Of a DNA stretch of 64,000 nucleotides, positions 20,450-32,753 are shown in pieces; position 1 is the first letter of the stretch, and every line of letters begins with the position of its first letter. Under the pieces are notes generated by a model. It ran no database searches, was not told the origin of the DNA, and saw nothing but the letters and a program-made list of their open reading frames with translations. The DNA is from Fermentimonas sp. (GTDB taxonomy: Bacteria > Bacteroidota > Bacteroidia > Bacteroidales > Dysgonomonadaceae), in contig JAQVXD010000001.1 in assembly GCA_028709385.1 (NCBI GenBank), forward strand, positions 124,001 through 188,000. Direction: 5' to 3'. A program made the position numbers and the translations under genes.

Positions 20450-20791
20450 ATGAAGTTGCAAACGATATGCGACATAGTTAACGGTAATATTCTTAATGAA
20501 TTTCAGGATTCATCGGATTACACTAAAGCCTTTGCTTCAGATTTAATGAGCGATGTGTTGAGATTTTCAATGGAAAACACTGTTTTAATTACAGGTCTCT
20601 CCACAATTCAAACAATAAGAACAGCTGAAATAACTAACTTGTCTTGCCTGATAATAGCAAGAGATAAGAAAGTATCATGTGATATGATTAACCTGGCAGC
20701 CCATAGCCGGATTTCGATTATATCCACTCAGGCATCTGTATTCGAAATATCAGGATTATTATACGAGAAAGGTTTAAAACCGGTGTACTAA
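20450..20791 (+). CDS. DRTGG-domain protein (hydrogenase-associated)
   Basis: 113 aa; DRTGG-like fold pattern (SDLMSDVLRF..., LIIARDKKVSCDMINLAAHSRISIISTQASVFEISGLL), paralogous to 22567..22917; TAATG overlap with next gene. Confidence 0.7.
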   Translation: MKLQTICDIVNGNILNEFQDSSDYTKAFASDLMSDVLRFSMENTVLITGLSTIQTIRTAEITNLSCLIIARDKKVSCDMINLAAHSRISIISTQASVFEISGLLYEKGLKPVY

Positions 20792-21201
20792 TGAAAATGC
20801 AGTATTTTATTCAGGGTGGGGACTTCAGTGCGGGTGGCCGTGCCAGTACTGAAGTTAAAAGTATTATTAAGCAGTTTAATATTTCGCCTGAAAAAATAAG
20901 ACGTATAGCAATAGCTCTTTACGAAGCAGAGATGAATGTTGTGGCTCATGCTTTTAAAGGAAAGATGGATGTGGATCTGAGGCCTGATCATATTCGCGTG
21001 GTGTTTATAGACGAAGGGCCGGGCATTGAGGATATTGATAAGGCGATGGAGGAGGGTTTTTCCACTGCCTCTGATGAAGTGCGTCAAATGGGCTTCGGTG
21101 CGGGAATGGGCTTACCTAACATCAAAAGAAACTGCGACGAAATGTTGTTATCCTCTGTTCCCGGTAAGGGAACAAGACTTGAGATTAAAGTTTTATTTTA
21201 A
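20791..21201 (+). CDS. Anti-sigma-factor-like (RsbW/SpoIIAB-type) GHKL ATPase
   Basis: 136 aa; N-box EAEMNVVAHA, G1 DEGPGI, G2 GFGAGMGLPNIKR. Confidence 0.82.
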   Translation: MKMQYFIQGGDFSAGGRASTEVKSIIKQFNISPEKIRRIAIALYEAEMNVVAHAFKGKMDVDLRPDHIRVVFIDEGPGIEDIDKAMEEGFSTASDEVRQMGFGAGMGLPNIKRNCDEMLLSSVPGKGTRLEIKVLF

Positions 21202-21205
21202 AGCT

Positions 21206-22558
21206 ATGAAAGACAGGAACTATACACACTCGATTCAGATCGATATAAATAAATGTATCGGCTGTTCACACTGTATGCATGTATGTTCTACACAGGCAAT
21301 AAGAATTGTTGAAGGTCACGCTTTAATTCAGCCTGAAAGATGCATTGATTGCGGAGAGTGTTACAGAGTCTGCCCTCAGCGAGCCATCTATGCAAGGGAT
21401 GACGGACTGAGGTCTGTTGAGAAAACAGGCTGGAAAATAGCTCTTGTACCTTCAGTATTTATTGGTCAGTTTTCATCAGAATACTCTGCATCACAGGTTC
21501 TGAATGCGGTTAAACAATTGGGATTTGACGAGGTTTTTGAGGTTGAGCATGCAGTTGATTTCATAAAAGAAGTTTACGAAAATTTAGCGACAGAAGATCT
21601 GCCCCGTCCTCTGATCAGTTCTTACTGTCCTGCAGTAGTGCGGTTAATTCAGGTAAAATACCCTTCTCTGACACACAATATAATAAGACTAAAAGCACCT
21701 CACGACTTAGCGGCCATATATCTTAGGAAGTCTAAAAACAGTATTCACAACTATCGCTCAAATATTCACATCTACTATATTACCCCTTGTGCAGCAAAAA
21801 TTGTGGCAGCCATTTCACCTGTTGGTGAAGATAAATCAGCAATTGACGGTACGATCAACATGACAGAAGTATTTAACCGTACATCTGCAATATTGATTGG
21901 CGAGAAGAATACTGGAATGCACAAAACAATTGCTGATATGAGTCCTGATTCTGTTAACTGGTCGCTGTCAGGTACAGAAAAGAAATATTTCTCCGGCAGA
22001 AGCCTTGCTATCGACGGAACAGACAACGTAATTCAGTTTCTTGAAAAATTGGAATCGGGACACATTAAAGATATCGACTTTCTTGAAATGAGAGCATGCG
22101 ATCAAGGGTGCGCAGGAGGTATTTTATGTCCGGGGAATAGGTTCCTTACTGTGGAAAGACTGGAGCAGAGACAGAAAAGACTGGAAAAGCTGAAATCCCA
22201 AAACTGTGGTAAAGTTGTCAACCCGTTAATGGATTACAGTGAGGTCCTGCATGACTATTCGGGAGTAGACCCTGTTTACCCTCGTGACGGTTTGCTGCTT
22301 GATGATGATATGGAAAAGGCATTAATTAAACTGCAGCGTATAAACCGCCTGGAGTCATACTTACCCGGATTTGACTGCGGGGCTTGTGGTGCTCCCGGCT
22401 GCAGAAATCTTGCTGAGGATATTGTAAAAGGAAGAGCAACAATTTCACACTGTGTATTTGTACAGCGGATCATGGAGAAGAATTATAAACTGAGTCCTGA
22501 TCAGGCTTTTATTGTAATTGAGAAGATCTGGGGCAAGGGAAGATTAAATAAACTATAA
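21206..22558 (+). CDS. HydS-like divergent [FeFe]-hydrogenase (putative sensory) with N-terminal 2x[4Fe-4S] and C-terminal [4Fe-4S] domain
   Basis: ORF track 21026..22558, start trimmed to MKDRNYTHSIQIDINKC after the ATPase stop. CIGCSHCMHVC, CIDCGECYRVCP; H-cluster-like motifs SSYCPAVV, TPCAAK, ACDQGCAGG; C-term FDCGACGAPGCRNLAEDI. Confidence 0.85.
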   Translation: MKDRNYTHSIQIDINKCIGCSHCMHVCSTQAIRIVEGHALIQPERCIDCGECYRVCPQRAIYARDDGLRSVEKTGWKIALVPSVFIGQFSSEYSASQVLNAVKQLGFDEVFEVEHAVDFIKEVYENLATEDLPRPLISSYCPAVVRLIQVKYPSLTHNIIRLKAPHDLAAIYLRKSKNSIHNYRSNIHIYYITPCAAKIVAAISPVGEDKSAIDGTINMTEVFNRTSAILIGEKNTGMHKTIADMSPDSVNWSLSGTEKKYFSGRSLAIDGTDNVIQFLEKLESGHIKDIDFLEMRACDQGCAGGILCPGNRFLTVERLEQRQKRLEKLKSQNCGKVVNPLMDYSEVLHDYSGVDPVYPRDGLLLDDDMEKALIKLQRINRLESYLPGFDCGACGAPGCRNLAEDIVKGRATISHCVFVQRIMEKNYKLSPDQAFIVIEKIWGKGRLNKL

Positions 22559-22566
22559 CAGTTAAG

Positions 22567-22917
22567 ATGGAAAAGAATCTGAAGTTTTTTATAAAAGAAT
22601 TAGGTTTAGAATGCAAAGCTGGTGAAGAGTTGCTCAACAGGGTCCCGAAAGGAGCCTATGTTTCTGATTTACTAAGCGATGTTATCGGAAAAGCTCAGGA
22701 GGATATGATATGGATAACAACGCAGGCACATCGAAATATTATAGCTGTAGCCAGTTTGAAAGAGTTGAGTGCAATAATAGTTGTTAATGACAGAAAAGTT
22801 GATGATGATGTGCTTGAAAGTGCAGACTCAGAAGGGGTTGTAGTGCTTTCTACTAAAGAGGCGGCATTTGAAACAGCCGGCAAACTATATTGCATTCTAT
22901 ATGACATAGATACATAA
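22567..22917 (+). CDS. DRTGG-domain protein (second paralogue)
   Basis: 116 aa; YVSDLLSDVIGKAQEDMIWITTQAHRNIIAVASL, IIVVNDRKVDDDVL, VVVLSTKEAAFETAGKL pattern parallel to first copy. Confidence 0.7.
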   Translation: MEKNLKFFIKELGLECKAGEELLNRVPKGAYVSDLLSDVIGKAQEDMIWITTQAHRNIIAVASLKELSAIIVVNDRKVDDDVLESADSEGVVVLSTKEAAFETAGKLYCILYDIDT

Positions 22918-22942
22918 TAATTGTTAAAGTAGTACAATTGTA

Positions 22943-23656
22943 ATGAGCTTTTTCAATGCAGATCTGCATATTCATACATGTCTTTCTCCCTGCGGAGATG
23001 AGGACATGAGTCCGCGAAACATTATTCGCATCGCGAAAGAGAGAGATATGCAGATAATTGCAATTACAGATCACAACACTACCCGTAATGTGAGAGTGTG
23101 TATGGAGCTTGGTATGCGAAAAGGAGTTTTTGTAATTCCGGGTTGTGAAGTAAATACTGTCGAAGAGGTACATTGTCTCTGTTATTTTCCCGACCTGCAA
23201 GTACTGGATAAGTTTCAGCAATTTCTGGACAGCCGAATAGCAGACCTAATAAATGATCCTGAAAAATTTGGCTATCAGGTAGCAGTAGACGAGAGTGATG
23301 TGATAATATACGAAGAAGAGCGATCTTTATTTACCGGAATTATGGATGGAATAGATGCTCTTGCAGAAGAGGTGCATAAGTTGGGGGGTATATTTGTACC
23401 TGCACATATAGACAGGCCTGTTAACAGTCTTTTAAGTCAACTTGGATTCATACCGCCGGACTTGAAGTATGATGCTCTGGAGGTTTCAAAACGTACTCTA
23501 CTGAGTGATTTTGAAAAAATGCATCCTGAACTAGCCGGAGAATTTTTTCTGCGAAATTCTGACGCACATTATACCGATGATATTGCTAAAGCTTATAACA
23601 GGTTTGAAATGGAAGATGCAAACTGGGAGTGCTTCAAATTACTGTTCAGCAAGTAA
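22943..23656 (+). CDS. PHP-domain phosphoesterase
   Basis: 237 aa; ADLHIHTCLSPCGDEDMSP, IAITDHNTTRN, FVPAHIDRP, NSDAHYTDDI. Confidence 0.85.
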   Translation: MSFFNADLHIHTCLSPCGDEDMSPRNIIRIAKERDMQIIAITDHNTTRNVRVCMELGMRKGVFVIPGCEVNTVEEVHCLCYFPDLQVLDKFQQFLDSRIADLINDPEKFGYQVAVDESDVIIYEEERSLFTGIMDGIDALAEEVHKLGGIFVPAHIDRPVNSLLSQLGFIPPDLKYDALEVSKRTLLSDFEKMHPELAGEFFLRNSDAHYTDDIAKAYNRFEMEDANWECFKLLFSK

Positions 23657-23682
23657 TGATATATTTTATTATATAAGATAAA

Positions 23683-24246
23683 ATGGTTGAAATGGCAATG
23701 CATATGATGGATGTTGCGCAAAACTCGATAAGGGCTGATGCTAAAAATATATATATCAACTTCTTCGAGGATTGTGATAATAACATATTGCTGTTCAGTG
23801 TTGAAGATGACGGCAAAGGTATGAGTGATGAGGAATTGAGTCGTCTTGAAGATCCTTTTTTTACAACTAGAACAACACGAAAAGTAGGACTAGGGATTCC
23901 TTTCCTGAAGATGACATGCGAGCAGAGTGGCGGATCTTTTACTGTTAAGTCTGAAGATGGAGTTGGTACTACAGTTGAAGCAACTTTCCGGACAGATAAT
24001 CCCGATTGTTTGCCCGTTGGTGATATTGCCGGTTATCTTACAATGTTGCTTGTAGCAAATCCTGATATCAGGATAAGGTTCTCTTACAAGATTAACAATG
24101 AGGAATTCACGCTTGATAACGCTGAACTAAGAGAACAGGAGATCGAGCTGCAACAGCCGGGAATGGCCGGTGTAATAAAGGCTTTCATAAAAGATAATCT
24201 TGAAGAACTTTACTCTAATCGCAAAGTGAAAAGTTTTTTATGTTGA
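23683..24246 (+). CDS. Stand-alone histidine-kinase-type GHKL ATPase domain protein
   Basis: 187 aa; MMDVAQNSIRADA (N-box), VEDDGKGM (G1), TRKVGLGIPFLKMTCEQSGG (G2); no DHp/sensor region. Confidence 0.82.
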   Translation: MVEMAMHMMDVAQNSIRADAKNIYINFFEDCDNNILLFSVEDDGKGMSDEELSRLEDPFFTTRTTRKVGLGIPFLKMTCEQSGGSFTVKSEDGVGTTVEATFRTDNPDCLPVGDIAGYLTMLLVANPDIRIRFSYKINNEEFTLDNAELREQEIELQQPGMAGVIKAFIKDNLEELYSNRKVKSFLC

Positions 24247-24310: not shown

Positions 24311-24706
24311 ATGAGAGAAATAAAAACATTAGCTGACCTTAAGAAAAAACAGGAGGAGATGAGAAGCAGAATAAAATTACGGGACAATGCAGAAAATCCC
24401 GAATCTCTTGTTCAGGTAAAGGTTGCCATGGCAACTTGTGGTATCGCTTCAGGTGCTAAAGAGGTGATGGAATACTTTGTTGATGAACTTGATAAAAGAT
24501 CAATCCGTGCAATTGTTACACAGACCGGCTGTATGGGGTATTGCTATGCGGAACCTACCGTAGAAATTACTCTGCCGGGACAAGACCCTATTGTGTTTGG
24601 TTATGTTACCGTCAAAAAAGCAGGGGATATAATCGAACATTATATTAAAGAAGGGGAACTGGTGGATGGCATCATTCCTCAGAATTATAATACCATTAAA
24701 TCTTAA
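24311..24706 (+). CDS. Thioredoxin-like [2Fe-2S] ferredoxin, hydrogenase associated
   Basis: 131 aa; VAMATCGIASGAKEVMEYF ... TQTGCMGYCYAEPTVEI; upstream of HydB. Confidence 0.83.
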   Translation: MREIKTLADLKKKQEEMRSRIKLRDNAENPESLVQVKVAMATCGIASGAKEVMEYFVDELDKRSIRAIVTQTGCMGYCYAEPTVEITLPGQDPIVFGYVTVKKAGDIIEHYIKEGELVDGIIPQNYNTIKS

Positions 24707-24717
24707 TATGACTGTAT

Positions 24718-26544
24718 ATGAGCAAGTATAAAATGCATATTTTAGTCTGCGCCGGAACCGGATGCAGTTCTTCTGAAAGTAATCTGGTCTGTGAAATACT
24801 GATTGATGAAGTTGAGAGAAAAGGACTGGGCGGTGATGTGCAGATTATTCGTACTGGCTGTTTTGGTTTTTGTGAAAAGGGGCCAATAGTGAAAGTTTTG
24901 CCTGATAATACCTTTTACACAAATGTGAAACCGGCAGATGCTAAAGAGATTGTTGATGAGCATATAATTAAAGGCCGTAAAGTCTATCGTTTGCTTTATA
25001 CAGATCCTGAGTCAGGAGAGCATTTACCTGACTCAAAGCACATGGGGTTTTACCAGAAGCAAATACGTGTAGCACTTCGGAATTGTGGTACAATCGACCC
25101 TGAGAATATTGATGAAGCTATTGCAAGAGATGCTTATCAGGCATTGGGTAAGGTAATCACTGAAATGGGACCTGATGTGGCCATTAACGAAATAAAGTCT
25201 TCAGGTTTAAGAGGTCGAGGAGGTGCAGGATTCCCGACCGGCCTCAAATGGGAGATTGCCCGTAAAAACGATGCTGATCAAAAGTATGTAGTCTGCAACG
25301 CTGATGAAGGTGACCCGGGTGCATTTATGGATCGTTCCATTCTTGAGGGTGATCCCCATTCTATTATTGAAGCGATGGCTATTTGCGGATACTGTATAGG
25401 AGCCAGTAAAGGATTGGTCTATATCCGTGCTGAGTATCCTCTAGCGGTAAAACGACTGAAAATTGCTATTGCTCAGGCACATGAATATGGTTTACTTGGT
25501 GATAATATATTTGGTACAGATTTCAGTTTTGATATCTCTTTAAAATATGGTGCCGGAGCTTTTGTATGCGGTGAAGAGACAGCACTCATTCATTCCATGG
25601 AAGGAAAGAGAGGCGAGCCTACCAACAAACCGCCTTTTCCTGCTCAAAGCGGTTATCTCGGGAAACCTACCAATGTTAATAACGTGGAGACTTTCGCCAA
25701 TATTCCGGTCATAATTCTTAAAGGAGCAGAGTGGTTCTCTTCAATTGGAACTGAAAAGTCGAAAGGCACCAAAGTATTTGCACTCGCAGGAAAAATTAAT
25801 AATGTAGGTTTGATTGAGATCCCAATGGGTATTACTCTCCGTGAGATAATTTATGAAATCGGAGGTGGTATCAAAAATGGAAAGAAATTCAAGGCAGTAC
25901 AAACTGGAGGACCTTCAGGAGGTTGCCTGACAGAGAAGCATCTTGATATTCCAATTGATTATGAAAGTCTGACAGCTTCAGGCTCTATGATGGGATCCGG
26001 AGGAATGATCGTACTCGATGAAGATGATTGTATGGTGTCAGTGGCTAAGTTTTATCTGGAGTTTATAGTTGACGAGTCATGCGGTAAATGCGCTCCTTGT
26101 CGTATAGGCAACAAGCGTATGCACGAGACTCTCAAAAGAATAACGGACGGTAAAGGCACACAGGAAGATTTGGATAAGCTTAAAAACCTCAGCTATGTTA
26201 TTAAGGATACATCTTTATGCGGACTCGGACAGACTTCGCCCAATCCGGTTCTCTCTACCATGGAACATTTCATGGATGAGTATAATGAACATGTAATCGA
26301 TAAAAAATGCCGGGCAGGGCAGTGCAGCAATCTGCTCTACTACGTAATCTCAGAAGAGGAGTGTATCGGTTGTATGGCTTGTTTGAGAGCTTGTCCTACA
26401 CACGCTATAAGTGGTGAGAAGAAAGAGGCACATGTTATTAATCAGGAGATATGTATAAAATGCGGGGCGTGTATGGAAAAATGCAAATTCGACGCCATCA
26501 CGCTGAGGAGCGACTACCCGAGGGTGTCTGTTCCAATAGTATGA
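24718..26544 (+). CDS. hydB: Electron-bifurcating [FeFe]-hydrogenase beta subunit HydB (NuoF-like)
   Basis: 608 aa; N-term [2Fe-2S] Trx-like domain, GLRGRGGAGFPTGLKWE, NADEGDPGAFMDR, ESCGKCAPCRIGNKRM, C-term CIGCMACLRACP and CIKCGACMEKC. Confidence 0.93.
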   Translation: MSKYKMHILVCAGTGCSSSESNLVCEILIDEVERKGLGGDVQIIRTGCFGFCEKGPIVKVLPDNTFYTNVKPADAKEIVDEHIIKGRKVYRLLYTDPESGEHLPDSKHMGFYQKQIRVALRNCGTIDPENIDEAIARDAYQALGKVITEMGPDVAINEIKSSGLRGRGGAGFPTGLKWEIARKNDADQKYVVCNADEGDPGAFMDRSILEGDPHSIIEAMAICGYCIGASKGLVYIRAEYPLAVKRLKIAIAQAHEYGLLGDNIFGTDFSFDISLKYGAGAFVCGEETALIHSMEGKRGEPTNKPPFPAQSGYLGKPTNVNNVETFANIPVIILKGAEWFSSIGTEKSKGTKVFALAGKINNVGLIEIPMGITLREIIYEIGGGIKNGKKFKAVQTGGPSGGCLTEKHLDIPIDYESLTASGSMMGSGGMIVLDEDDCMVSVAKFYLEFIVDESCGKCAPCRIGNKRMHETLKRITDGKGTQEDLDKLKNLSYVIKDTSLCGLGQTSPNPVLSTMEHFMDEYNEHVIDKKCRAGQCSNLLYYVISEEECIGCMACLRACPTHAISGEKKEAHVINQEICIKCGACMEKCKFDAITLRSDYPRVSVPIV

Positions 26545-26565: not shown

Positions 26566-28353
26566 ATGAAAAATATGATTGAGCTTACAATAGATAAGAA
26601 AAAGGTACAGGTTGAAAAGGGCACCACAATTCTAAAAGCAGCCCGTAAAGCCGGAGTGGAAATACCAACACTTTGTCATTTCGAGTTGTGTGATATGGGA
26701 ATTGAAAATAAGCCGGGAGGATGCAGGATATGTGTAGTTGAGGTGGAAGGACGCAGAAACCTGGCTCCCTCATGCATCACTGAAGTTCAGGAGGGTATGG
26801 TTATTAATACTCATAATATCAGGGTGCTGAATGCAAGGACTACTGTGCTTAAACTGATAATTTCCGACCATCCTTTTGATTGCCTGGTATGTGCAAGGTC
26901 AGGACAATGTGAATTACAGAGTCTTGCCACACAGTTTAACATCCGTAGTCTCCCGTATGAGGGTGAACAATCAAGGTACAGAAAAGATACTTCGCCTTCT
27001 ATTATAAGAGACATTGATAAATGCATTATGTGCCGCAGATGCGAAATGATGTGTAATGAAGTGCAGACTGTTGGTGCACTTTCAGCTGTAAACCGTGGGT
27101 TTATGTCAGTAGTAGCACCTGCTTTCGAAATGAATCTTGAAGATTCTCCATGCACCTATTGCGGTCAGTGTCTTTCAGTTTGCCCCACAGGTGCGCTCAC
27201 AGAAGTGGATCATACAAATGATATTATACGTGCTTTAAGTGATTCATCCAAAACTGTTATCGTACAGACTGCCCCTGCAGTTCGTGCTGCTCTGGGTGAA
27301 GAGTTCGGTCTGCAGCCGGGAACATTAGTGACCGGTAAAATGGTATCGGCTTTAAAAGAGCTCGGATTTGATTATGTTTTTGACACTGATTTTAGTGCAG
27401 ATCTCACTATAATGGAGGAGGGAACTGAACTTTTGCAGCGACTGAAAGCTTATTTAGCCGGAGATACAGAAGTGCGTCTGCCGATTCTTACTTCCTGCTG
27501 CCCCGGATGGGTAAACTTTTTTGAGCATAATTTCCCCGATCTGATTGATGTACCTTCAACAGCAAAATCACCTCAGCAAATGTTTGGAGCAATTGCCAAA
27601 ACGTACTTTGCAGATAAGATAGGAGTAAACAGAAAAGATCTTATCGTGGTGTCTATCATGCCGTGTATAGCTAAGAAGTATGAATGTCAGCGGGATGAGT
27701 TTAAGGTGGACGGTAATCAGGATGTAGACTATTCAATTTCTACCCGTGAACTGGCTGCATTTATAAAAGAGGCTAATATTGATTTTCTGAATCTTCCTGA
27801 TGCAGATTTTGATGACCCGCTGGGTGAGTCAACCGGTGCAGGTGTAATATTTGGTAATACAGGAGGTGTAATTGAGGCTGCCTGCAGAACTGCCTATGAA
27901 ATTTATACAGGTAAAAAGCTCGAAAATGTGGTGTTTGATAATTTGCGGGGAATGGAAGGTATACGCTCTGCGAAGGTTGATTTTGACGGAATTGAGCTTA
28001 ATATAGGTATTGCACACGGATTGGGTAACGCCCGCAAACTTTTGGATGAGGTAAGGGCAGGTACTTCAAAATATCATGCAATAGAGATAATGGCCTGTCC
28101 CGGTGGCTGTATTGGTGGCGGCGGACAGCCTTATCATCACGGAAACAGTGAGATACTCAGTAAACGGGCAGCTGCAATTTACACAGAGGATGAGCGTAAG
28201 ACAATTCGCAAATCGCATGAAAACCCGTCAATCATAAAGCTGTATAAAGAGTTTCTGGGTGAACCCGGAAGTCACAAGGCGCACAGTCTGCTACATACGG
28301 AATATTTTCCAAAAAGTAATGAGGTTACACTTCATTTGAACGGTGAAATATAA
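26566..28353 (+). CDS. hydA: [FeFe]-hydrogenase catalytic subunit HydA
   Basis: 595 aa; [2Fe-2S] PTLCHFELC...GGCRIC, DHPFDCLVCARSGQCELQ, two [4Fe-4S] sites, H-cluster motifs TSCCPGWVNF, MPCIAKKYE, MACPGGCIGGGGQP. Confidence 0.95.
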   Translation: MKNMIELTIDKKKVQVEKGTTILKAARKAGVEIPTLCHFELCDMGIENKPGGCRICVVEVEGRRNLAPSCITEVQEGMVINTHNIRVLNARTTVLKLIISDHPFDCLVCARSGQCELQSLATQFNIRSLPYEGEQSRYRKDTSPSIIRDIDKCIMCRRCEMMCNEVQTVGALSAVNRGFMSVVAPAFEMNLEDSPCTYCGQCLSVCPTGALTEVDHTNDIIRALSDSSKTVIVQTAPAVRAALGEEFGLQPGTLVTGKMVSALKELGFDYVFDTDFSADLTIMEEGTELLQRLKAYLAGDTEVRLPILTSCCPGWVNFFEHNFPDLIDVPSTAKSPQQMFGAIAKTYFADKIGVNRKDLIVVSIMPCIAKKYECQRDEFKVDGNQDVDYSISTRELAAFIKEANIDFLNLPDADFDDPLGESTGAGVIFGNTGGVIEAACRTAYEIYTGKKLENVVFDNLRGMEGIRSAKVDFDGIELNIGIAHGLGNARKLLDEVRAGTSKYHAIEIMACPGGCIGGGGQPYHHGNSEILSKRAAAIYTEDERKTIRKSHENPSIIKLYKEFLGEPGSHKAHSLLHTEYFPKSNEVTLHLNGEI

Positions 28354-28374: not shown

Positions 28375-28926
28375 ATGAGTCAGAATATAAAAGTAAATCC
28401 GGAAGTTTACAGTTTCATGGAGAAAAAGACCGGAACAGATAATGTGGAGGTTAAAGTGAATCTCTCCAAGGAGAAGGTCGACAAGATAAACGAAATCTGT
28501 AATATGTTTGATAATGAGCCTCGTGAGCTTATAAATGTATTACATGAGGCACAGCATGAGTTTGGCTATCTGCCGGCAGAAGTGCAGGATGTGATTGCCC
28601 ACAACCTCCATATCTCTGTGGCACAGGTGTACGGAGTAGTCACTTTCTATTCATACTTCTCGATGATTCCCAAAGGAGAGCACCCGATTTCAATATGTAC
28701 AGGTACAGCCTGTTATGTTCGTGGTGCAGAAAAAGTGCTGGAGGAATTTAAAAAAGAGCTGAATATTAAAGTAGGTGAAACCACCTCTGATGGTAAGTTT
28801 TCAATCAATTGTCTACGTTGTGTAGGGGCTTGCGGACTCTCCCCTGTAGTTCTTGTCGGAGAAAGGGTCTTTGGCAGGGTATCACCTGATGGTGTTAAGG
28901 CAATATTAGACGAATACAGGAAATAA
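28375..28926 (+). CDS. hydC: Hydrogenase gamma subunit HydC (NuoE-like)
   Basis: 183 aa; HEAQHEFGYLPAEVQDVIA, VYGVVTFYSYFS, CTGTACYVRGAE, CLRCVGACGLSPVV. Confidence 0.93.
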   Translation: MSQNIKVNPEVYSFMEKKTGTDNVEVKVNLSKEKVDKINEICNMFDNEPRELINVLHEAQHEFGYLPAEVQDVIAHNLHISVAQVYGVVTFYSYFSMIPKGEHPISICTGTACYVRGAEKVLEEFKKELNIKVGETTSDGKFSINCLRCVGACGLSPVVLVGERVFGRVSPDGVKAILDEYRK

Positions 28927-28949: not shown

Positions 28950-30023
28950 TTATTTATAGTTTTTTGAATAATGTTTCGAATTCCCCTGTTTAAAATAGCC
29001 TATTTTATGCCTTATTGTTTCTAAGCTTTTTTCAAGAGAATCAAGCTCATCTTCATCATTTAAAGCATTTAAGGGCTTGTTTTCATAAAGCAGATATTCT
29101 TTTCTGTAATTACAGGGTGTTATGTTGGGCATTATCACATTTGCTCCAACAGCAACAGCCTTTTCCCGTCCTTTATGTTCTAAGGTCTGCATTGCTGTTG
29201 TAGCGGCTATATTAATATCAGGCATTAAAATCCGTAAGAGAGATATCATCTTCAATGCCAGAGTGAATCGTACTGAAGCTGGCTCTAATAGTTCCCTGTA
29301 TTTATACAAAGGGGTTTGATGATGCTCAATATAAGGACCCATACCACACATATCTATATTAATATCCCTCATAAAAACAAGATCATCAGCCAGCATGTCA
29401 ATTGTCTGGAAAGGCAGGCCAATCATTACTCCTGTTCCCACCTGGTAACCCGTTTTACGTAACAATTCCAGAGCCTTTACACGTTTGGTAAAGCTATGTG
29501 ATTCACCCTGAGGATGAAGTTTTTTGTAAAGCTCTTCCGAAGAGGTTTCAATACGTAACAGGTATCGGTCAGCCCCGCTTTCAAACCACCTGCGATAAGT
29601 ATCCCCGCTCTGCTCACCACAGGAAAGTGTGATACCAATACCGTTGTTGGTGATTTTTTTAGATTCTCTTAAAATCTTGTCAATTTTATCAGTAAAAGTC
29701 TTTGAGCTTGTTTCGCCAGACTGTATCGCAACAGATCCGTAACCCTTTTTGAAAGCCAGTTTAACTAAATCTATTACCTCCTCATGTTTCAGATTGTAAC
29801 GGTTGACGCTATTATTCGATCGCCTGATTCCACAATAATAACAATCCTTTTCACAAACGTTTGACAGTTCAATCAATCCGCGCAAAAAAACTTCATTACC
29901 AACATTCTGAAGTTTGATTTTGTATGAATAATCAAATAAAGCCTGCTCTTTTTCTCCTGTAGAGGATAGAAGTTCTGCTATATCACCCCTCGATAAAGGG
30001 TAGTCTTGGATTGTTTTTATCAT
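28950..30023 (-). CDS. hydE: [FeFe]-hydrogenase H-cluster radical SAM maturase HydE
   Basis: 357 aa; radical SAM CEKDCYYCGIRRSN; downstream of hydF/hydG. Confidence 0.93.
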   Translation of the reverse strand: MIKTIQDYPLSRGDIAELLSSTGEKEQALFDYSYKIKLQNVGNEVFLRGLIELSNVCEKDCYYCGIRRSNNSVNRYNLKHEEVIDLVKLAFKKGYGSVAIQSGETSSKTFTDKIDKILRESKKITNNGIGITLSCGEQSGDTYRRWFESGADRYLLRIETSSEELYKKLHPQGESHSFTKRVKALELLRKTGYQVGTGVMIGLPFQTIDMLADDLVFMRDINIDMCGMGPYIEHHQTPLYKYRELLEPASVRFTLALKMISLLRILMPDINIAATTAMQTLEHKGREKAVAVGANVIMPNITPCNYRKEYLLYENKPLNALNDEDELDSLEKSLETIRHKIGYFKQGNSKHYSKNYK

Positions 30024-31221
30024 ATTCGTAAAACTTTCTGAAGACTCTTACAACTCTTTCAAACACACCGTTTACATAGGCCAGTGCCATACCATAGTTG
30101 GTTACGGGTATTCCCTTTTTTATAAAAGGATACAGCCTGTTTAACAACTGTTTACGAGTTACCATGCATCCGCCGCACTGCACAACTAGTGAGAAATCGC
30201 TTATATTATCCGGCAATGCAGTTAATCCTGAAACAACTCTGAAATTCAACTTTTTTCCTGTAAACTCCTGAAGCATCTTTGGGATTTTTACTCTTCCGAT
30301 ATCGTCACAACTTGTCTGATGTGTGCAGCTCTCCAGTATTAAAACTTCATCGCCGTCTTCAAGGTTCGAGATACAGGGTGTACCTCTCAGGTATGCTGCA
30401 AAATCACCTTTAAGACGGGCAAAGAGAATACTGAAACTGGTAAGAGGTATTGTTTCAGGCAGTTTCGCGGTTACTGTGTTAAAAATCTGACTGTCCGTAA
30501 TTGCCAGAGCAGGAGTGATACCGGTTTCCAGGAAGTTATCCAGTTCATCTTCTCTCACAACCACCACTATACAGTGATTATCAATTGCATCACGGATAGT
30601 TTGATTCTGAGGATAAATCAGTCTGCCTTCAGGAGCCTCACTGTCTATTGCAACAATAATAAGTACAACATCTTTTGGACTTACAAGATTACCAATCAGA
30701 GTGTTGTTCTGATAAACAGTTTTCGGTAAAATTCTCTTCAGTGAGTCAATAAGAATTTCTCTATCTTTAGGTTTGTAGGTGCTTATATCTATTATCTCAG
30801 CGTTAGAATGCCATTTGATAGCGTTCTTGGTGATAGCCGCTATCTTACTGATATCATTTTTATTATGAACTATAAGATAGGGTACATCATGTGCTTTAAA
30901 CTGATCAATCAGACGAACTTCATAATCACCGAATTGATTTCCTGCAATAAGCAAAACAGCGCAATCAACTCTCAGAATCACCTCGAGTGATTTTTTAATC
31001 TTCAGGTGACCAATTTCGCCTAAATCATCTATACCTGCGGTGTCGATAATAGTAGCCGGCCCAATCCCAAGTATTTCAACTGCCTTTTTCACAGGGTCGG
31101 TGGTCGTCCCTTTTCTGCTCGAAACAATTGAAATATCCTGATCGGTTAGCATATTGATTAATGAACTCTTGCCTGTATTCGTACGGCCGAAGATTCCTAT
31201 ATGTAGATTATTTACGCTCAT
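29983..31221 (-). CDS. hydF: [FeFe]-hydrogenase H-cluster maturation GTPase HydF
   Basis: 412 aa; GRTNTGKSSLINML, DTAGIDD, NKND; C-terminal ESCTHQ and CGGCM Fe-S ligands. Confidence 0.95.
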   Translation of the reverse strand: MSVNNLHIGIFGRTNTGKSSLINMLTDQDISIVSSRKGTTTDPVKKAVEILGIGPATIIDTAGIDDLGEIGHLKIKKSLEVILRVDCAVLLIAGNQFGDYEVRLIDQFKAHDVPYLIVHNKNDISKIAAITKNAIKWHSNAEIIDISTYKPKDREILIDSLKRILPKTVYQNNTLIGNLVSPKDVVLIIVAIDSEAPEGRLIYPQNQTIRDAIDNHCIVVVVREDELDNFLETGITPALAITDSQIFNTVTAKLPETIPLTSFSILFARLKGDFAAYLRGTPCISNLEDGDEVLILESCTHQTSCDDIGRVKIPKMLQEFTGKKLNFRVVSGLTALPDNISDFSLVVQCGGCMVTRKQLLNRLYPFIKKGIPVTNYGMALAYVNGVFERVVRVFRKFYEYDKNNPRLPFIEG

Positions 31222-31223
31222 AA

Positions 31224-32645
31224 CTAAAAATATAGATCTCTTTCTCCCTGTTCTATCCTTTCAATTTTTTTCTTAAGCTCCTTCTGAATCTTCACGCTCA
31301 ACTCTTTAAGGTTCTTTTCTATCACCTTCATGCCCTTTTCTTTGGTTTGCTCAGGTGCATAATCATACAGGTATTCGGCAAGTGTTAATATTGCATTAGG
31401 AGTACAGAATCTTTTTATAAAACCGGGAACAGAAAACTCCATAAAATGTTCACCCGTTCGTCCCAAACGGTAGCATGCAGTACAGAACGAAGGTATCATA
31501 TCCTGATCAAGAAGCTCGTCAATTATATCATTTAAAGGGCGGTCGTCGTTGATGCGGAACTGACTCCTGTCGATATTTTCATTTTTTTCTTTAAATGAAT
31601 AGCTTCCCAGCTCTATTTTAGTGCCTCCGTCAATTTGTGAAACGCCGTATTGGATCACTTCGTCACGAAGCGCAGCAGGTTCACGGGCAGTCAGTATCAT
31701 ACCGGTATAAGGAACTGCCAGCCGGAGTATCGCAACCATACGTAAAAAATCTTCATCTGAAACAAAATAACTGCTACCCATATGTAAATTCGACGCATCT
31801 TTTATCCTTGGGAAGGAGATAGTATGAGGTCCCACGTTATAACAAGTCTCCAGATGGTTAGTGTGCCTGACAAGTCCCATAACTTCAAAGCGCCAGTCGT
31901 ACAGTCCGATTAAAGCACCTATACCTACATCATCAATACCCGCTTTCTGTGCACGGTCGAGTGCCGTCAGCCTCCAGTTGTAATCTGCTTTCCTGCCACT
32001 GAGGTGATATTTTTTATACGCTTCGGGATGATATGTTTCCTGAAACACCTGGTAAGTGCCTATTCCGGCTTCTTTTACAGTTTTGTACCCCTCAATATCA
32101 AGAGGTGCTGCATTTATATTTACCCGTCGGATTTCACCATTACCCTTTTTTACTTTATATGTCGTTCTTACTGAATCAGCTATAAACTCAGGAGTATATT
32201 CGGCATGTTCTCCAAAAACAAGAATCAGTCTCTTTTGACCTTCATCTTCAAGGGCTTCGACCTCTTTAACTAGCTCATCAAGTGAAAGTGTTTTCCTTAC
32301 CTGAGCTTTATTGGATGCCCTGAATCCGCAATAAACACAATTATTTGAGCATTTATTGCCTACATAAAGAGGAGCAAAGAGTACAATGCGGTTACCGTAA
32401 ACATTTCGTTTTAATAATCTGGCGCCCTCCTTTATCAGCTCAATAGAAGTTGTATCTGTAGCATTAATTAATATTGCTGTCTCTTCAAGATTTAATCTTT
32501 TTTTTGAAAGTGATTTTTCTACTATTTCTTTAACCTTATCAGGGGTAGGGATAGAGTTATTAAGGTAATCCCATATTTCATCCGGATCAATAAACGGTTG
32601 CATTGGTAAATCAGGTATACGGTATTTCTCAGGAGTAAATTGCAT
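31224..32645 (-). CDS. hydG: [FeFe]-hydrogenase H-cluster radical SAM maturase HydG
   Basis: ORF 31224..32687; start trimmed to MQFTPEKYRIPDLP. Radical SAM CSNNCVYCGFRASN; C-terminal FCTACYRLGRTGEHFME. Confidence 0.95.
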   Translation of the reverse strand: MQFTPEKYRIPDLPMQPFIDPDEIWDYLNNSIPTPDKVKEIVEKSLSKKRLNLEETAILINATDTTSIELIKEGARLLKRNVYGNRIVLFAPLYVGNKCSNNCVYCGFRASNKAQVRKTLSLDELVKEVEALEDEGQKRLILVFGEHAEYTPEFIADSVRTTYKVKKGNGEIRRVNINAAPLDIEGYKTVKEAGIGTYQVFQETYHPEAYKKYHLSGRKADYNWRLTALDRAQKAGIDDVGIGALIGLYDWRFEVMGLVRHTNHLETCYNVGPHTISFPRIKDASNLHMGSSYFVSDEDFLRMVAILRLAVPYTGMILTAREPAALRDEVIQYGVSQIDGGTKIELGSYSFKEKNENIDRSQFRINDDRPLNDIIDELLDQDMIPSFCTACYRLGRTGEHFMEFSVPGFIKRFCTPNAILTLAEYLYDYAPEQTKEKGMKVIEKNLKELSVKIQKELKKKIERIEQGERDLYF

Positions 32646-32753
32646 AATATGTTTATTACAGGTTATCACAAAGATAGCATTTTTCAAATGATTCTAAACA
32701 TTACTTTTAATGTAAATTTGGTAGTAAATAGGGCATACATTTAACAAAGATAG

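Follow-up and report, generated by a model that had tools for sequence, protein, structure and literature searches.

Organisation of the locus

The window analysed here is a 64,000-nucleotide stretch of DNA from a Fermentimonas-like Bacteroidales genome. The ORF listing of this window confirmed a cassette of six genes on the plus strand at positions 20450-24246. The first encodes a 113-residue standalone DRTGG domain (DRTGG1, 20450..20791; PF07085) and is followed by genes for a 136-residue GHKL ATPase of the SpoIIAB/RsbW type (ATPase 1, 20791..21201), a 450-residue group D (M2e)-like HydS with Fe_hyd_lg_C and PF04060 domains (21206..22558), a second DRTGG protein of 116 residues (DRTGG2, 22567..22917; PF07085), a 237-residue PHP-domain protein (22943..23656; PF02811) and a second GHKL ATPase of 187 residues (ATPase 2, 23683..24246; PF02518). 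DRTGG1 and ATPase 1 share a one-base overlap in the sequence TAATG (20789-20793), and the later gaps within the cassette are 4, 8, 25 and 26 nt. The gene order, coordinates, overlap and tight packing described in an earlier note on this DNA are all verified; its statement that the DRTGG paralogs flank HydS is incorrect, as ATPase 1 separates DRTGG1 from HydS.

The cassette had also been described as running straight into the hydrogenase genes. These do follow on the same strand, but the cassette and HydB are separated by a gene for a 131-residue thioredoxin-like [2Fe-2S] protein (24311..24706, plus strand; NF041612 34 bits, below cut-off), which is probably the HydD described in Feng 2022. From ATPase 2 onwards the spacing is 64, 11, 21 and 21 nt. 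HydB (24718..26544), the NuoF-type NADH/FMN subunit, matches PF01512 (160 bits) and also carries PF10589, Fer4 and an N-terminal thioredoxin-like domain. It precedes the catalytic group A [FeFe]-hydrogenase HydA (26566..28353; NF040763 907 bits against a cut-off of 765 bits, PF02906 323 bits) and the NuoE-type subunit HydC (28375..28926; PF01257 168.6 bits). The maturation genes HydE, HydF and HydG (28950-30023, 29983-31221 and 31224-32687), assigned from sequence and position, occupy 28950..32687 on the minus strand and are convergent with the operon.

Distribution of the cassette and exchange of the catalytic subunit

Of 80 named Bacteroidales loci, 73 keep the six-gene order and the remaining seven are apparently cut by contig ends; this recurrence indicates that the arrangement is more than chance. 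HydS is present in 57 of 197 other Bacteroidales genomes and is accompanied by DRTGG2 and ATPase 1 in every one of the 57. Co-occurrence of gene pairs over the 197 genomes gave Fisher p values of ~1e-37 to 1e-50, uncorrected for phylogeny. The thioredoxin-like gene follows ATPase 2 in most loci. This gene-neighbourhood survey bears out the proposal of a HydS-centred cassette that is obligate, co-inherited and usually adjoins a bifurcating hydrogenase.

The earlier note had named separation of these genes from HydS or HydABC as evidence against its proposal, and such separation does occur in part. Four genomes keep the other cassette genes without HydS, and the cassette is not adjacent to HydBC in Parabacteroides distasonis and in genome G198; the neighbouring HydBC is therefore not its sole target. 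No hydrogenase genes were found in the 18 kb examined around the P. distasonis cassette. The sole match in a tblastn search of plasmids with DRTGG2 was a gyrA-bearing P. distasonis record, probably of chromosomal origin. A rule that genomes with no hydrogenase client have no HydS was dropped, since two genomes (G343 and G346) possess HydA without HydS.

The cassette accompanies the HydBC core whichever of four catalytic subunits is present: the [FeFe] enzyme, a [NiFe] enzyme with Hdr/FlpD, a NuoG-like subunit with NfnAB, or a formate dehydrogenase, in which case the cassette lacks HydS. It lies ahead of the genes for the last three enzymes too. The description of the cassette as hydrogenase-linked thus holds as a usual association but fails as a strict one, and this exchange of the catalytic client led us to reject a role confined to hydrogenases. 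The Nfn-type variants lack the PHP protein and ATPase 2.

The DRTGG proteins and ATPase 1

Matches to PF07085 (cut-off 25.2 bits) are marginal for DRTGG1 (25.6 bits) and somewhat higher for DRTGG2 (31.6 bits); the DRTGG proteins of one related locus, L165, score 34.0 and 28.9 bits. The two are paralogs (hhalign probability 99.7). The literal DRTGG motif is not present, RDKKV and NDRKV occupying the aligned place, and other motifs are invariant instead. DRTGG1 carries the near-invariant pattern SDLMSDVL...TGL..Q..RTAE...R-K in 86 homologs, and DRTGG2 the signature Y-SDLLSDV...W-T-Q-H-N. The profile match of DRTGG2 to 1ko7 (E=1.7e-4) relates it to the N-terminal domain of HPr kinase, and it also resembles the regulatory domains of CBS-DRTGG pyrophosphatases. 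DRTGG1 is naturally fused to ATPase 1 in four genomes (loci L129, L130, L179 and L182), which predicts one direct contact between them.

ATPase 1 matches PF02518 (40.1 bits), PF13581 (34.8 bits) and PDB entry 1tid (E=1.8e-4). The fold, modelled via the homologous fusion protein of L130, matches that of SpoIIAB (TMt 0.87, rmsd 1.8 Å). Its invariant motifs are E45-x3-N49, D74-x-G-x-G and GFGAGMGL, and the residues E45 and N49 of the catalytic Glu-x3-Asn box are present in 88 of 88 homologs.

A putative group D-like sensory hydrogenase

HydS comprises two N-terminal [4Fe-4S] motifs, an H-domain (Fe_hyd_lg_C, 97 bits) and a C-terminal [4Fe-4S] domain (PF04060, 49.5 bits), and a Pfam profile search gave no match to a PAS domain. 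The H-cluster residues Cys141, Cys195, Cys298 and Cys302, together with Lys198, are kept in the window protein. All four cysteines are retained in 108 of 110 homologs, C298 being replaced by His in two members of the distant set, and the four Cys residues of the C-terminal [4Fe-4S] domain are invariant in the homolog alignment. The proton-transfer cysteine (C299 of CpI) is Tyr in the window protein and Phe or Tyr in 110/110 homologs. Both diiron-site methionines are replaced by Thr/Arg or Thr/His in these proteins, the window HydS having Thr for M353 and Arg for M497 of CpI. The H-cluster cysteines, the lost proton-transfer cysteine and the C-terminal [4Fe-4S] domain without PAS are three features of group D (M2e), and from its sequence we regard HydS as a putative group D-like sensor with a predicted H-cluster.

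In one 99%-complete genome HydS is the only [FeFe]-hydrogenase-type protein. No catalytic [FeFe]-hydrogenase was found in genome G198, which has the cassette, and HydS is the only PF02906 protein of genome G172; the H-cluster ligands are kept in both despite this. HydF is present in G198, while a search for HydE, HydF and HydG in G172 gave only weak partial matches, with 1.80 of 3.32 Mb covered. The HydF ORF of the window has homologs in 118 of 198 genomes. A HydF match is missing in some genomes with HydS, but no weight was given to this because genomes with catalytic HydA can be without one as well.

ATPase 2 and the PHP protein

The second ATPase, probably the “HisK” of published operons, was earlier described as a bare ATPase of the histidine-kinase type, a description that does not stand. 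Its GHKL domain (PF02518, 53.4 bits) begins at the N-terminus and is followed by a second, C-terminal domain (AF2 pLDDT 90.6, pTM 0.86). Histidine kinases carry an Asn-x3-Asn box. ATPase 2 has an invariant D10-x3-N14 instead, the Asp being present in 88/88 homologs, and a Pfam profile search detected no DHp domain with a phospho-accepting His; a histidine-kinase relay was rejected for want of this phosphoacceptor domain. Its full-length fold matches of lowest E value are MutL/PMS2-type ATPases, which superpose loosely.

The PHP protein (PF02811, 34.6 bits; cut-off 26.4) is a probable metal-dependent phosphoesterase, to judge from nine His, Asp and Glu residues of the metal-binding PHP motifs (H9, H11, D43, H44, E69, H77, H155, D207 and H209), which are invariant in 91 homologs. 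Cys17 is also invariant among these and possibly occupies a further ligand position.

A possible redox switch of electron-bifurcating enzymes

We put at about even the chance that the six genes are inherited together as a signalling module belonging to electron-bifurcating enzymes of the HydBC type (Bfu family), in which HydS acts on a DRTGG/ATPase switch. This reading is also favoured by H-cluster ligands that persist in HydS where no catalytic [FeFe] enzyme was found, and by the SpoIIE-type phosphatase (21 loci) and Rex (6 loci) genes that recur nearby. Starting from the parts and their order, the co-occurrence of HydS, DRTGG2 and ATPase 1, the DRTGG1-ATPase 1 fusion, the conservation of active sites and the exchange of clients, we infer a direction of signalling, a phosphorylation step, DRTGG as its substrate and an output. 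HydS would bind H2 or take up electrons at its modified H-cluster, and its C-terminal [4Fe-4S] domain would hand this state to DRTGG2 and to a DRTGG1-ATPase 1 complex. ATPase 1, acting as a protein kinase of the SpoIIAB kind or as a clamp driven by ATP, would phosphorylate or release a DRTGG partner, so that DRTGG would fill the place of STAS in classical partner switches. The PHP protein and ATPase 2 may reset or gate the switch, a step that would be dispensable since both are absent from the Nfn-type variants. The output would tune the bifurcating enzyme or the fermentative redox balance of the cell. More tentatively, this may be a new kind of partner switch, with paired DRTGG proteins replacing STAS and a hydrogenase-derived sensor governing a SpoIIAB-type kinase whose target is DRTGG; it would then be an exchangeable redox governor serving electron-bifurcating enzymes at large (H2-, formate- or NAD(P)H-linked) and not hydrogenases alone.

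It is rather less probable that the cassette serves to assemble or repair the HydBC core. The ATPases, PHP and DRTGG proteins would in that case be chaperones or cofactor-insertion factors driven by ATP, with HydS giving structural or redox help. Such a module would follow HydBC across differing catalytic subunits, as observed, and would suit the MutL/PMS2-type matches of ATPase 2, which is not a full histidine kinase; Feng 2022 took HydD, HydP and HisK to act in maturation and/or regulation (PMC8880783). However, among 73 genomes that have a HydA ortholog, 17 lack the cassette (some possibly through assembly gaps), and it is thus not generally needed for assembly. In P. distasonis and G198 it has no HydBC beside it, and the full H-cluster site of HydS would be superfluous in an assembly helper.

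Classical partner switching, in which ATPase 1 would be an anti-sigma factor or serine kinase whose STAS antagonist and SpoIIE-type phosphatase are encoded elsewhere, seems unlikely. ATPase 1 resembles the kinases of the SpoIIAB-SpoIIAA-SpoIIE and RsbW-RsbV switches in fold and catalytic box, a SpoIIE-type phosphatase gene recurs in 21 of 100 loci, and L172 has, a few kb upstream, a set of STAS, RsbW-like and SpoIIE genes, of which similar ones occur in L168 and L173. Nevertheless, ATPase 1 scores 56.3 bits against TIGR01925, far below the cut-off of 135 of this curated SpoIIAB model, and the residue aligned to Arg20 of SpoIIAB, the sigma/antagonist contact position, is Ser19, 95% conserved. 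Its fusion partner is DRTGG rather than STAS, and the SpoIIE gene goes with group C HydS, which lies beside the cassette in some relatives. No sigma factor or STAS gene was found within the cassette, either in the window or in relatives, and the STAS set was seen only in those three related loci. A DNA-binding regulator is likewise absent from the cassette, which thus has no output gene of its own. The partner switching suggested in the earlier note is accordingly not borne out in its sigma-factor form.

Equally improbable is a metabolic role, with HydS as a slow hydrogenase or electron valve and the PHP and DRTGG proteins making or binding a small phosphorylated metabolite: the retained H-cluster ligands and Lys198, the invariant PHP metal ligands and the relatives of DRTGG2 would fit, but the proton-transfer cysteine is lost throughout the HydS set and two ATPases lacking a catalytic partner domain suit switching better than catalysis.

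In relatives, Rex seems to add a further, separate layer through NADH-linked control of transcription. Rex-like palindromes lie upstream of the operon in 37 of 83 cases, compared with 19 of 488 controls (p=1.9e-21), and a Rex gene occurs in 6 loci. A Rex operator in the window itself was rejected, the best site (10 of 14 matches) being at background level.

Relation to known systems

Earlier publications already report group D HydS next to HydABC, together with a HisK-like ATPase. TamHydS of Thermoanaerobacter mathranii, which alters its secondary structure with H2 (PMC13104023), likewise has two N-terminal [4Fe-4S] motifs, an H-domain without the proton-transfer Cys, a C-terminal [4Fe-4S] domain and no PAS (PMC8163306, PMC13104023), and adjoins a group A enzyme and a histidine-kinase-like ATPase. 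Its diiron-site Met positions are Ser/Leu rather than Thr/Arg, and its reported neighbours are the ATPase and an AraC protein, whereas the DRTGG, SpoIIAB-like and PHP genes found here are not reported there. The HydABC and NiFe-HydABCSL operons with HydD, HydP and HisK share the HydBC core, and their HisK and HydD probably correspond to ATPase 2 and the thioredoxin-like gene (PMC8880783, PMC9304861); in these accounts (Feng 2022, Schut 2022) the DRTGG pair, SpoIIAB-like ATPase and group D HydS are not described as one unit, and “HisK” here lacks the phosphoacceptor domain of histidine kinases. Group C HfsB/HydS-PAS with HfsC also places an H-domain sensor beside phospho-switch enzymes and hydrogenase genes (PMC5707799, PMC11837493), and deletion of hfsB shifts fermentation products (PMC5707799); that module uses PAS and a SpoIIE-type phosphatase, in contrast to the kinase-type ATPase and PAS-less sensor of the cassette. 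A literature search for DRTGG together with hydrogenase found nothing relevant. To judge from the literature searched, the obligate DRTGG/ATPase partners, the DRTGG1-ATPase 1 fusion, the client exchange over the HydBC core, a genome with HydS as its sole [FeFe]-type protein and the Thr/Arg or Thr/His diiron replacements are new.

The signalling route of group D sensory hydrogenases was described as an open question by Land 2020 (PMC8163306). Our survey supplies a short list of obligate HydS partners, which makes this route testable. It also reveals genomes where no [FeFe]-hydrogenase-type protein other than the sensor was found, and others where the client is a [NiFe] enzyme or not a hydrogenase at all. 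If the proposed switch is correct, H2 or redox signals would reach electron-bifurcating metabolism in many anaerobes, including gut Bacteroidales, through a switch built from domains with no known joint working.

A conserved gene cassette beside the hydrogenase core

The Bacteroidales genome from which the window derives (2.83 Mb; contig positions 124001-188000) carries the six genes picked out by the earlier note as a compact plus-strand run (20450-24246) in the order DRTGG1, ATPase 1, HydS, DRTGG2, PHP protein and ATPase 2, where they were indeed found. The same run continues with a gene encoding a thioredoxin-like [2Fe-2S] protein, then HydB, HydA and HydC, and the HydEFG maturation genes, assigned by sequence and position, lie on the opposite strand, convergent with the operon. 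The best-matching named locus is from a Fermentimonas sp. MAG (HydS 93% identical). A survey of the cassette order in named loci recovered it uninterrupted in 73 of 80, the seven exceptions appearing truncated by contig ends; the cassette runs on to the thioredoxin-like gene and HydB in 67/80, and all ten genes are present in 55/80. These loci were picked by HydS similarity, so separate occurrence of the cassette genes is not measurable from them.

When 198 Bacteroidales genomes, including that of the window, were searched with each cassette protein separately, the others yielded HydS in 57, DRTGG in 62, ATPase 1 in 61, PHP in 59 and ATPase 2 in 61 (complete set in 54). The co-occurrence with HydS expected by the earlier note holds in part: DRTGG2 and ATPase 1 accompany HydS in every HydS genome (57/57, that of the window excluded), but four genomes (G229, G286, G343 and G346) have the cassette without HydS. 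Pairwise Fisher p values, which take no account of common descent and serve for description only, are ~1e-37 to 1e-50 inside the cassette and ~1e-26 to 1e-30 between cassette genes and HydA. The cassette is absent from 17 of the 73 genomes having a close HydA orthologue, with assembly gaps possible in some (in G268, for example, the contig breaks off).

A second HydC-HydB-HydA set (HydA ~50% identical), lost in the window, stops just 5' of the cassette in many relatives, upstream of DRTGG1 (loci L047, L050, L061, L063, L066, L077, L080 and others), so that the cassette there lies between two hydrogenase operons. Two further loci, L078 and L086, are near-identical; L086, labelled Alphaproteobacteria, is probably a misnamed Bacteroidales bin.

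Exchange of the catalytic subunit

The cassette tracks the HydB/HydC core, not a single catalytic subunit, and a strict reading of the hydrogenase link proposed earlier is not supported. An [FeFe] HydA is the partner in the window and most Bacteroidales. In another class of the same phylum, HydS occurs in 20/294 genomes. Most of 18 newly fetched loci, together with L131 and L132, have a [NiFe] partner in the order HdrC-HdrB-HdrA-DRTGG1-ATPase 1-HydS-DRTGG2-PHP-ATPase 2-HydC-thioredoxin-HydB-HydA (no H-domain)-FlpD-[NiFe] small-[NiFe] large, an arrangement similar to that of the NiFe-HydABCSL type (Feng 2022, PMC8880783). A NuoG-like subunit with NfnAB-like proteins is found in L129, L130, L179 and L182, where PHP and ATPase 2 are absent. 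The partner in G286 is a formate dehydrogenase (catalytic subunit 901 bits to TIGR01591, cut-off 666), and HydS is absent. Within the 18 kb examined in Parabacteroides distasonis, no hydrogenase genes surround the six-gene cassette.

The G286 locus (L124) has the cassette followed by HydB-formate dehydrogenase-HydC, with FdhD-like and MobA-like genes upstream. Housekeeping genes including gyrA are present on the P. distasonis record (L142, NZ_OY725779.1, 'plasmid 34'), probably a piece of the chromosome. L128 (G247) has HydB and HydC after the cassette, no HydA between them, and an adjoining group C HydS and SpoIIE-like phosphatase. A conserved Cys-containing protein of ~180 aa and unknown family is encoded 5' of DRTGG2 in three of the four NuoG-like/NfnAB loci.

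The HydS active site

The 110 homologues of HydS (21206-22558) keep all four H-cluster cysteines, bar one Cys to His replacement in two sequences, and the C-terminal [4Fe-4S] cysteines are invariant. The lysine matching K358 of the reference hydrogenase CpI is conserved in 109/110, and the CpI C299 position is Phe or Tyr in 110/110. Residues 193 and 296, corresponding to the diiron-site methionines M353 and M497 of CpI, are Thr/Arg in most Bacteroidales and Thr/His in most of the [NiFe]-partnered set. The Thermoanaerobacter mathranii homologue TamHydS is reported to have Ser and Leu at these two positions (PMC8163306); in contrast to the reported TamHydS and TmHydS residues, the side chain next to the diiron site is charged in HydS here. 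In G198 (C110; L126/L127; 1.8 Mb, 99% complete) HydS is the sole PF02906 protein, yet HydF is kept, in support of an H-cluster matured for HydS alone. HydS is likewise the sole PF02906 protein in G172, where 54% of the genome, searched for maturase genes, gave weak partial matches. The N-terminal [4Fe-4S] cysteine at residue 20 is kept in 2/20 of the [NiFe]-partnered set (L131, L132, L165-L182), its replacements being mostly Arg, Asp or His.

ATPases, DRTGG and PHP proteins

ATPase 1, judged on a homologous fusion protein from L130 (AF2 pLDDT 88.9, pTM 0.68), has the fold of SpoIIAB (TMt 0.87, 1.8 A) and carries a Glu-x3-Asn box. It falls below the curated SpoIIAB cut-off and, unlike SpoIIAB, has a conserved Ser at the Arg20 position; a sigma-factor reading of the cassette is not supported. 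Natural DRTGG1-ATPase 1 fusions, each a single polypeptide, occur at L129:10367-11203, L130:8655-9470, L179:8429-9223 and L182:8339-9133, all upstream of the NuoG-like/NfnAB enzyme. Such fusion predicts contact between DRTGG1 and ATPase 1, a claim that excludes any domain arrangement given the modest pTM of the L130 model. The two DRTGG proteins are paralogues, each with its own invariant motifs, and DRTGG2 is distantly related to the N-terminal domain of HPr kinase.

The PHP protein keeps every metal-type residue. ATPase 2 has Asp-x3-Asn, no phosphoacceptor domain and full-length fold matches of MutL/PMS2 type (TM ~0.5, a loose superposition), which together suggest a GHL-type ATPase. It is probably the HisK of published operons.

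Regulation and function

A Rex-like palindrome (TTGTKAA-N4-TTMACAA, >=12/14 matching) lies 5' of DRTGG1 in 37/83 loci compared with 19/488 control genes (p=1.9e-21); by the same criterion neither the window nor its close relatives have one upstream of DRTGG1. In the relatives that have these sites, operon transcription thus appears to be under an NADH sensor of its own, which would make a further, possibly post-translational, role for the cassette more likely. Near the cassette, a Rex gene occurs in 6, a single-domain response regulator in 11 and a SpoIIE-family phosphatase, mostly with group C HydS, in 21 of 100 loci. In L172, genes for SpoIIE phosphatase, STAS and RsbW-like proteins form a set (L172:3-1709) a few kb 5' of the Hdr/cassette operon, and similar genes occur in L168 and L173.

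Group D HydS has been described beside a bifurcating hydrogenase and a histidine-kinase-like ATPase (PMC8163306, PMC3608648), and HydD, HydP and HisK of the [NiFe] operon are published with an assumed role in maturation and/or regulation (PMC8880783). We found no DRTGG-hydrogenase link of this kind in the open-access literature searched. The accessory cassette, surveyed in Bacteroidales and one other class of the phylum, is real, strongly conserved and largely undescribed. Its most likely function, which we hold with about even confidence, would be to relay redox/H2 signals from HydS by way of a DRTGG-ATPase switch.
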